Made by a program: the position numbers and the translations under genes
Origin: Kitasatospora cinereorecta
GTDB taxonomy: Bacteria > Actinomycetota > Actinomycetes > Streptomycetales > Streptomycetaceae
Reading direction: 5' to 3'
DNA: 64,000 nt
NCBI RefSeq assembly: GCF_024172095.1
Contig: NZ_JAMZDX010000003.1
Location: forward strand, 434,001 to 498,000
Part shown: positions 31,039 through 49,788 of the stretch, piece by piece
How positions within the stretch are numbered: position 1 is the first letter of the stretch
Layout: each line of letters opens with the position of its first letter
The notes under the pieces: generated by a model
The model's input: only the letters and a program-made list of their open reading frames with translations
The model's database searches: none
Told to the model about the DNA's origin: nothing

Positions 31039-31116
31039 ATGGAGCAGCGCGAGATCCTCACCCGTCGACGCCACGTCGACCTGGGAAGAGTGTCCGGTTC
31101 GCTGTGTCGTGGCTGA
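31039..31116 (+). CDS. Putative leader peptide, RRHVDLxRV type, upstream of FMN reductase
   Basis: A 25-codon reading frame ending RRRHVDLGRVSGSLCRG and TGA. The RRHVDLxRVxxxLCR pattern recurs in short Streptomyces peptides annotated as putative leader peptides ahead of sulfur-metabolism genes (established as an annotation class; I recall it and did not search). It has no ribosome site but sits 7 bases from a -10 box, so it should be translated from a leaderless RNA. The single Cys codon is the rare TGT. A hairpin and then the FMN reductase gene follow within 71 bases, so translation of the peptide may set reductase expression. Confidence 0.7.
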   Translation: MEQREILTRRRHVDLGRVSGSLCRG

Positions 31117-47243: not shown

Positions 47244-48199
47244 GCCCGGACCTCCGCGGCCAGCGCCAGCGCGGCCCGGGCCATCCCGGCGGTCGCGGGG
47301 ACGTCGCTCATCAGCAGCGGGACGGCCCGGCAGCGGATGCCGGCCGCCTCCACGCCGGCGACCGCCTCGGCGTCGGAGTCGTCGACCAGCCAGCCGTCCA
47401 GCAGCTCGGACCCGTAGTGCCGGGCGACCGCCTCGGCCGAGGTCTCCACGCCGACCGCGGCCAGCACCTTGTCGGCCATGCCGCGCACCGGCGCCCCGCC
47501 GATGATGGGGGAGAGCCCCACCACCGGCGCGGAGGCGTCGCTGACGGCCTGTCGGATGCCGGGGACGGCCAGGATGGTGCCGATCGACACCACCGGGTTG
47601 GACGGGGGCAGCAGGATCACGTCCGCGGCGGCGATCGCCTCCAGCACGCCGGGCGCCGGCTTCGCGGTGTCCGCGCCGACCGGGATGATCGCCTCGGCGT
47701 CGACCGCGGCGTGCAGCCGCACCCAGTACTCCTGGAAGTGGACCACCCGCGGGCCAGCCTCGTCGGTGATCCGGACGTGGGTCTCGACCCGGTCGTCGCT
47801 CATCGGGATCAGCCGTACGCCGGGCCGCCAGCGCACGCAGAGCGCCTCGGTGACCTGGCTCAGGCTGTAGCCGGCCGAGAGCATCTGGCTGCGCACGAGG
47901 TGGGTGGCGAAGTCGCGGTCGCCGAGCCCGAACCACTCGGGGCCGACGCCGTACTCCTTCATCTCCGCCTTGATCGACCAGGTCTCGTCGGTCCGGCCCC
48001 AGCCCTGGTCCTCGTTGATGCCGCCGCCGAGGGTGTACATCACGGTGTCCAGGTCGGGGCAGACCTTCAGCCCGTAGAGGTGGATGTCGTCCCCGGTGTT
48101 GCCGATGACGGTGATCTCGTCGCCGGGGGCGACGGCCTCCTTCAGCCCGCGCAGGAAGCGCGCCCCACCGATTCCGCCTGCCAGTGCCACGATCCGCAT
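47240..48199 (-). CDS. fbiA: 2-phospho-L-lactate (or PEP) transferase, F420 biosynthesis
   Basis: Joins the activated 3-carbon unit (LPPG or EPPG) to the deazaflavin Fo to give F420-0 or dehydro-F420-0. The 319-residue protein begins [18 protein letters not shown], the CofD Rossmann loop. It continues with [31 protein letters not shown] and [17 protein letters not shown] 48199 follows AGGA by 9 bases; ATG 48208 is in frame. It is coupled to fbiB by a 4-base overlap. Upstream, cysteine dioxygenase ends 5 bases away. Confidence 0.95.
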
Positions 48200-48204
48200 G
48201 GGGA

Positions 48205-48852
48205 TCATCCTGCCAGGCGGTCGCGCACTTCCTCGCTCGCCCGGCGCTCGTCCGCGCCGTACTGGTTCATCTCGACCAGGCCCGGCGTGTAGAGGTGGAT
48301 GCTCACCGCGGGCTCCAGCGCCGCGTTGACCACCTCGTGCAGATAGCCGGAGGAGTACACCCGCTGCCGGCCGGGGGCCAGCACCCGCGAGTCCTCGCCC
48401 TCGCCGGTCAGCGAGCGCTCGACCAGGGCGCCCTGCACCACGGTCATCACACCGGCGGCGGCGCCGTGGTCGTGGAAGCCGGTGGACTGGCCGGGCAGCC
48501 AGCTGAGCAGCCACACCTCGTACCCGGGGCCGGTCTCCAGCCGGGCGTACCAGCGGGTCAGCGCGTCGTAGCGGACCAGCGGCTCCCACCGGGACCGGTC
48601 GGCGGCGATCTCGCGGACCAGTCGGGCGTAGTCGCCGATCCCGGTCGGGTGGGCGGGCAGGTCGGTGCGGGCCAGGTGCGGGAAGGCGAGCGGGTCGCCG
48701 GCGATGGACACGTCGCTCAGCCCGTCCGCCCAGTCGGCGGGTGCGGGTGCGGGTGCGGGCGCGGGGGCGACGGCCGCGGCGGCGGGGAGGGGGATGCGGG
48801 CGACGGGCTTGTTGCGATCGCGGTTGCGCTTGCGGAGTCGGGGCATTCGCAC
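48205..48852 (-). CDS. Cysteine dioxygenase family protein (cupin)
   Basis: Predicted to oxidise L-cysteine to cysteine sulfinate with iron and oxygen. The 215-residue protein has a basic and Ala/Pro-rich N-terminus (about 40 residues) and a cupin with the iron ligands H127 and H129 ([11 protein letters not shown]) and H172 ([11 protein letters not shown]). These match bacterial type I cysteine dioxygenases. GTG 48852 has GAGGA about 9 bases upstream; ATG 48846 is an alternative. A 32-codon Cys-rich leader frame and a 9-bp hairpin lie between its promoter and start. The product may feed sulfur disposal or taurine-like pathways. Confidence 0.88.
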
Positions 48853-48869
48853 GGTCTGACGTCCTCGGG

Positions 48870-48897
48870 AGTCGGCTGTTGGCTGGAGCAGCCGACT
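48870..48897 (-). promoter_or_regulatory. Hairpin before the cysteine dioxygenase ribosome site
   Basis: AGTCGGCTG-N10-CAGCCGACT forms a 9-bp perfect stem that ends 3 bases before GAGGAC. It lies between the Cys-rich leader frame and the gene, where an attenuator would be. Confidence 0.5.
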
Positions 48898-48972
48898 GCG
48901 CGGAGCGTCAGGGGGGACTGTCGCGCGCGGGCGGCCTCTGATCCGGGGCGGCGCGCGGTGGGACGCGGGCGC

Positions 48973-49071
48973 CTAGATACAGCGGTGACAGCGGCGACAA
49001 CAGGAGGACGAGCTCGCGGCAGCACGGAACACCGCCGGGCGGCGGCTCTCGGGTGCGGCGAACTCTGACAT
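48973..49071 (-). CDS. Putative polycysteine leader peptide upstream of cysteine dioxygenase
   Basis: A 32-codon frame from ATG 49071 to TAG 48973, ending SSSSCCRRCHRCI. All four Cys codons are TGT, the rarer Cys codon in such genomes, and fall in the last eight positions. There is no ribosome site; the promoter's -10 box ends 7 bases before ATG, so the RNA should be leaderless. In mycobacteria, leaderless polycysteine frames sense cysteine and attenuate the downstream gene (established). The same logic is inferred here. The gap to the cysteine dioxygenase start is 120 bases. Confidence 0.65.
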   Translation of the reverse strand: MSEFAAPESRRPAVFRAAASSSSCCRRCHRCI

Positions 49072-49078
49072 GCGTGCA

Positions 49079-49108
49079 AGCAGACCGCACGGGGCGGGGG
49101 CGTGTCAA
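49079..49108 (-). promoter_or_regulatory. Promoter of the polycysteine leader
   Basis: On the minus strand: TTGACA (49108-49103), an 18-base spacer, TCTGCT (49084-49079), then 7 bases to ATG 49071. The -35 box is a perfect consensus. The -35/spacer/-10/start distances equal those of the leader at 31039. Confidence 0.6.
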
Positions 49109-49515: not shown

Positions 49516-49788
49516 ATGAGCGAGCTCTTTGAGCTGTTGATCGGTGAGGACATCGCGGAGGACGAGGAGGAGCTCGGCTGGCAGGAGCGCGCGCTGTGCG
49601 CCCAGACCGACCCCGAGTCCTTCTTCCCCGAGAAGGGCGGCTCCACCCGGGAGGCCAAGAAGGTCTGCCTCGCCTGCGAGGTCCGGTCCGAGTGCCTGGA
49701 GTACGCCCTCGCCAACGACGAGCGCTTCGGCATCTGGGGCGGCCTGTCCGAGCGTGAGCGCCGACGCCTGAAGAAGAGCGCGGTCTGA
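49516..49788 (+). CDS. whiB: WhiB sporulation regulator, iron-sulfur transcription factor
   Basis: Works with WhiA to switch on cell division genes when aerial hyphae form spores. The 90-residue protein has the four Cys that hold a [4Fe-4S] cluster (C28, C51, C54, C60), the turn GIWGG (72-76) and a basic C-terminus ERRRLKKSAV for DNA contact. The stretch from LGWQERALCAQTD onward matches Streptomyces WhiB almost residue for residue. GAGGAGG lies 8 bases before the ATG. Upstream elements include a likely BldD box. Confidence 0.96.
   Translation: MSELFELLIGEDIAEDEEELGWQERALCAQTDPESFFPEKGGSTREAKKVCLACEVRSECLEYALANDERFGIWGGLSERERRRLKKSAV

Follow-up and report, generated by a model that had tools for sequence, protein, structure and literature searches.

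Runs of codons for a single amino acid in a short leader ORF are a textbook device of biosynthetic genes, which are switched on when that amino acid runs short. The locus described here raises the question of what such a leader does when the gene that follows encodes an enzyme that destroys the amino acid. In the window (the whole stretch of 64,000 nucleotides that was analyzed), sequence inspection and comparison with relatives identified a minus-strand ORF of 32 codons plus TAG (49071–48973), placed between a cysteine dioxygenase gene (cdo) and a divergent whiB-family gene (49516–49788, plus strand). Its peptide is MSEFAAPESRRPAVFRAAASSSSCCRRCHRCI, and the C-terminal end, SSSSCCRRCHRCI, carries a CC-RR-C-HR-C tail (48979–49002, minus strand), which is the conserved part of the ORF and in which all four Cys codons are TGT. 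This is the same frame, with the same four TGT codons, that a first-pass annotation had described as an attenuator-like polycysteine leader ahead of cdo, and the comparisons reported below lend that proposal strong support. We assign a probability of about 0.7 to the reading that the ORF is a cis-acting Cys-codon leader, transcribed from its own promoter and controlling cdo, whichever the sign of its response.

The downstream gene (48205–48852, minus strand) starts with GTG at 48852 and encodes a protein of 215 amino acids. The first-pass annotation had taken the target to be a cysteine-degrading enzyme, and the product was indeed identified as a cysteine dioxygenase by its matches to the Pfam domain CDO_I (3.4e-17; 62.9 bits against a curated cut-off of 23) and to solved cysteine dioxygenases (1.4e-17). 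A Shine-Dalgarno sequence, GAGGA (48862–48866, minus strand), was read in the sequence and is aligned in relatives. The target therefore falls within cysteine metabolism but is catabolic, whereas the known targets of polycysteine leaders are biosynthetic. Within a few bases after cdo (48199–48205, minus strand) lies what we take to be an fbiA/cofD-like gene for F420 biosynthesis, and because it follows so closely, the leader may affect that gene too.

A comparison spanning Kitasatospora, Streptomyces, and Streptacidiphilus revealed that the frame is conserved. A Cys-tailed ORF occupies the same place in all 30 Kitasatospora genomes examined, including the source genome, and precedes cdo in nearly all other Streptomycetaceae loci, where the leaders have diverged (for example, MSEQRAHSESLVTELRRAASALCCRCS, or the Streptomyces form MLANLALTSTGSAGSHGAARARCSCCRCSSC). 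A short ATG-initiated ORF with at least four Cys codons among its last 12 was present at 111 of 122 loci, whereas the same criterion was satisfied by none on the reverse strand and by one of 1220 dinucleotide shuffles. Note that the 122 loci are those where a leader had been recognized beforehand, and that they are related, so the counts do not represent independent events. Two loci that the first filter had missed (L057 and L067) also carry a Cys-tailed ORF, and none was found by the criteria used at L051, L068, L125, and L132. Judged by these sequence comparisons, the Cys-tailed ORF before cdo is more than a product of chance.

The pattern of substitution indicates what selection preserves. 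When 43 distinct ORFs from Kitasatospora were compared, the proportion of comparisons that showed a difference in codons other than those for Cys was 0.29 at position 1, 0.28 at position 2, and 0.21 at position 3. The first two positions thus vary as freely as the third, which implies that the peptide itself is hardly constrained. In these same ORFs, the first Cys codon is TGT in 43 of 43 and the second in 41 of 43. Across 102 leaders, TGT outnumbers TGC by 378 to 107 (78% TGT), whereas 61 TGT and 444 TGC codons (12% TGT) were counted in the cdo and whiB segments at those loci, and only 11% of the other leader codons end in T. What is conserved is therefore the frame, the stop, and the Cys codons, and not the remaining amino acids. 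This pattern fits a codon-reading device and fits neither a functional peptide nor a sensor that acts through the nascent chain. An arrest peptide was also considered and was rejected because the 43 Kitasatospora ORFs lack conserved amino acids beyond the Cys codons.

The promoter of the leader is equally distinctive. A −35 box, TTGACA (49103–49108, minus strand), occurs without a mismatch in 98 of the 100 distinct homologous promoters compared. It is followed after 18 nucleotides by a −10-like box, TCTGCT (49079–49084, minus strand; family consensus T[C/G]TnCT), which in turn lies 7 nucleotides before the leader ATG at 49071. The spacer measures 18 nucleotides in 76 of these 98 promoters and 17 nucleotides in 22, the gap to the ATG is 7 nucleotides in 88 of 98, and the geometry as a whole is retained in approximately 98 of 100. 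All three elements named by the first-pass annotation (a perfect TTGACA, an 18-base spacer, and an ATG 7 bases on) were read in the sequence. The −35 box and the spacing proved to be conserved, but the −10 element did not hold up as a standard TANNNT box, since relatives carry C or G there: position 2 is C or G, and essentially never A, in about all of the 98 homologous promoters, whereas the S. lividans −10 consensus is TAnnnT (PMC8079986). A sigma-70 scan made no call on the leader promoter. An activator or an alternative sigma factor is a possible explanation for the odd box. When tested genomes were searched with the promoter pattern plus an ATG at this spacing for more leaders of the same type, the cdo locus was the sole match in them, and one further match in the source genome had a different spacing. 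The conserved geometry predicts a leaderless message, with the ATG at or beside the 5′ end of the RNA. Leaderless mRNAs arise from approximately 21% of primary start sites in S. coelicolor (PMC4895711).

The RNA between the leader stop and the cdo ribosome site (48870–48972, minus strand) is a C-rich spacer with no U-run terminator. Spacers of the family span 33 to 269 nucleotides (median 104) and contain 49% C and 27% G. Their C/G ratio of 1.79, compared with 1.26 in upstream DNA, represents only a moderate excess of C. A trp-type attenuator with a terminator hairpin and U-run was rejected as a candidate because TTTTT occurs in none of 93 spacers and no intrinsic terminator was called on the cdo strand.

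Two local hairpins are present in this region. One, GGCGC...GCGCC (48949–48973, minus strand), is anchored on the leader stop, with the final base of TAG serving as its first G, and its 5-bp stem was seen in all 25 distinct sequences from Kitasatospora. Loci of the Streptacidiphilus type form differently paired stems at the leader stop (GGGCCTGAC/GTCGGGCCC). The other is the 9-bp hairpin that the first-pass annotation had placed ahead of the cdo ribosome site; it was found at 48897–48870 (minus strand; AGTCGGCTG/CAGCCGACT) and ends 3 nucleotides before the Shine-Dalgarno sequence. All 45 Kitasatospora sequences have a stem of 5 bp or more near this site, usually with the core CGGCTG/CAGCCG, and some of them have longer paired versions. 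The leader RNA of the window folds locally better than its shuffles (z −2.58). However, the cross-genus comparison yielded only local hairpins, with a weak signal outside Kitasatospora. In the comparison across Streptomycetaceae, the frame and the TGT codons proved to be conserved, and the downstream structures were not conserved across genera. A search of Rfam returned one chance match (E 0.23), located outside the leader region, and none above the gathering score.

We envision that transcription would start at or beside the leader ATG, and that a ribosome would load on the leaderless 5′ end and read the run of TGT codons just before the stop. If charged Cys-tRNA is short, the ribosome would be expected to pause on these codons and occupy the hairpin at the stop codon together with the beginning of the C-rich spacer, whereas if charged Cys-tRNA is ample, it would complete the leader and depart. 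The downstream RNA would then meet one of two fates: Rho-type termination or closure of the cdo start in one case, and an open, full-length message in the other. Rho-dependent termination at the cdo leader would be compatible with this model. In E. coli tnaC, the peptide and free tryptophan stall the ribosome when the amino acid is abundant, which is not a response to codon shortage; the likeness is that a ribosome lingering where the cdo leader ends could likewise shield a C-rich Rho-loading region. When a paused ribosome was modeled, opening the cdo start became cheaper by approximately 3 to 5 kcal/mol for the window and its closest relatives (for example, from 14.6 to 11.3–11.6 kcal/mol), a result that favors expression in cysteine shortage. 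Over 45 Kitasatospora sequences, however, the modeled pause left the cdo start as accessible as before (means of 10.6 versus 10.7–11.0 kcal/mol), and a stalled ribosome that switches the cdo start was rejected as a candidate for want of a consistent effect. Because of this inconsistency, the anatomy fixes neither the switch nor its sign.

Cys-codon leaders themselves are not new. Leaderless polycysteine short ORFs, a kind known as cysteine-responsive attenuators, occur in mycobacteria (Canestrari et al. 2020, as cited in PMC13236596 and PMC9094748). They resemble the cdo leader in having a leaderless-type start (predicted for the cdo leader), a short ORF with Cys codons just before the stop, and a cysteine-related gene downstream without an intrinsic terminator, and they differ from it in peptide sequence and in that the target of the cdo leader degrades cysteine. 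Another set of predicted leader peptides precedes the cys and cbs operons of Mycobacterium, Propionibacterium, and Bifidobacterium (PMC1262725). These likewise have runs of Cys codons beside the stop and no conserved terminator, and Rho was proposed to act there, but the operons are biosynthetic and Streptomyces cdo lies outside their coverage. The metL leader before metNIQ in S. lividans (MSTTSDRTPATEATTTPGARCMCRRMCAF; PMC8079986) shares with the cdo leader a leaderless message (predicted in the case of cdo), a Cys-containing tail, and no typical terminator; however, it precedes a transport operon and is methionine dependent according to that report.

Closer likenesses were found among leaders that match NCBIfam NF042934, a cis_reg_atten model (putative leader peptide, RxHVDLxRVxSALC). 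cdo leaders of the Streptacidiphilus type match the model at its core motif: they contain RSLHVELRRAASALC, close to the core GRLHVDLRRVASAIC, and the similarity reaches p ~2e-4 in composition shuffles for most of them. The corresponding values are 0.0002 to 0.004 for three Kitasatospora leaders and 0.027 for the window peptide, and most Streptomyces cdo leaders exhibit no similarity. The window peptide is not a member of NF042934 at the curated 27-bit cut-off; compared with the model, it has lost the HxDL part, has gained a longer Cys tail, and obtains no score. The other whiB-linked cdo leaders tested gave no match either. In the source genome, where NF042934, PF05995, and PF01507 served to sample Cys leaders, those of the NF042934 type precede cysI (sulfite reductase), cysO-cysM, an ssuA-like gene, and an ssuE-like gene. 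On the basis of these similarities, the cdo leader seems to derive from a type of leader placed before biosynthetic genes. The window itself contains a second Cys leader, MEQREILTRRRHVDLGRVSGSLCRG (31039–31116, plus strand), which is of the NF042934 type (34 bits) and lies 70 nucleotides before a gene for an SsuE-like FMN reductase; its match to the mycobacterial Ms5788A leader family, at 3e-6, is below the family cut-off.

Coupling of cdo to Cys leaders is recurrent. All three clear cdo paralogues of the source genome carry Cys leaders of different sequence, those of the other two being VGHLDLRLFRRTHLDTVRYAGCLCCRPAV and MKPGTILVCRLHVDLRRQASDMCAR (loci L165 and L166, on other contigs). In a family that resembles Mycobacteriales, a placement that is a guess, very short ORFs that end in ECCR lie just before cdo (L186, L188, L192, L194, and L196). 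Acidobacterial cdo genes are preceded by ORFs of the MAF...CCRCDQPLVG type (L137, L140, L142, L143, L145, L147, and L148) with a conserved promoter-like box, TTGACCCGATTCTT...ATGCTAGCGTC, whose exact motif, in the two genomes found to contain it, is exclusive to the cdo locus. The leaders of these last two groups are unrelated to that of the window, and it is together with the three paralogues that they establish the recurrence.

Two alternatives to a codon-reading leader were weighed. The short frame could be a by-product without a regulatory role, with the conserved promoter serving cdo alone; the promoter is indeed the most conserved DNA of the region, and translation of the ORF is a prediction. 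We consider this very improbable, because the frame, stop, and TGT codons survive large sequence change, shuffles almost never yield a Cys-tailed ORF, and unrelated Cys leaders recur before other cdo genes. Slightly less remote, yet still improbable, is a nascent Cys-rich peptide that stalls within the ribosome tunnel on sensing oxidation or metal, as has been proposed for copper-responsive leader peptides that contain Cys. Clusters of Cys residues bind metal and oxidize easily, cysteine dioxygenase is an iron enzyme, and cdo mRNA responds to H2O2 (PMC4991794). Against this, the leader peptide is unconserved apart from its Cys residues, and a peptide sensor could not perceive the preference for TGT over TGC.

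For a leader that reads Cys codons, there remains the sign of the response. The first-pass annotation held that the logic should be inverted, so that ample cysteine turns cdo on. In such an attenuator, cysteine shortage would stall the leader ribosome and shut cdo off, which suits an enzyme made only when cysteine needs removal; the opposite arrangement, a cysteine-destroying enzyme switched on in cysteine shortage, is physiologically odd. A keratin-rich feather medium raises cdo1 50-fold and cdo2 8-fold in SCUT-3 (PMC7181669), which is in keeping with inversion. So is the finding that whiB-linked cdo leaders mostly have at least four Cys codons, compared with one or two in biosynthetic leaders of the same genome, a difference that would make sense if cdo had to be the first to shut off as cysteine declines. 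However, S. coelicolor RNA-seq data reveal that H2O2 raises SCO3035 by 6.5-fold and SCO5772 by 8-fold, and that cysNDCHI, cysM, ssuABC, and metNIQ rise together with them (PMC4991794). SCO3035 is the counterpart of this cdo by gene order only, lying beside the whiB gene SCO3034, and SCO5772 is annotated as a putative cysteine dioxygenase (PMC3087709). Both cdo genes of S. shaoguanensis are likewise up at 96 h, jointly with cysD/N/C/H (PMC12763843). Co-induction with cysteine biosynthesis suggests that cdo shares the sign of the biosynthetic genes, although the H2O2 response could be an indirect effect, and the apparent ancestry from biosynthetic leaders likewise suggests the usual polarity. 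Furthermore, spacers of 33 to 269 nucleotides offer no obvious route by which a ribosome that finishes the leader could open the cdo start, and neither folding models nor hairpin comparison revealed an anatomy that makes a stalled ribosome inhibitory. Thus, co-induction and kinship oppose the claim of inversion. We lean modestly toward the usual polarity, wherein cysteine shortage turns cdo on, and regard the inverted sign as rather unlikely. The compound proposal that Cys leaders were put before cdo several times independently with inverted sign, such that shortage shuts the degrading enzyme off, is slightly more doubtful still. The probability left over from the two signs falls to some other behavior.

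The first-pass annotation knew of no description of this case, and our search of an incomplete literature library found no paper on a Cys-codon leader before cysteine dioxygenase. Cys-codon leaders being already known in mycobacteria, what appears new is their placement before this gene. Throughout an antibiotic-rich family, the same codon-run device precedes an enzyme that destroys the amino acid being sensed, and a Cys leader before cdo apparently arose more than once. If the sign is inverted, the leader would be an attenuator with reversed logic, fitted to a catabolic gene. If the usual sign holds, a cysteine-destroying enzyme would be made in times of scarcity, and the purpose of bacterial cysteine dioxygenase would need to be rethought.
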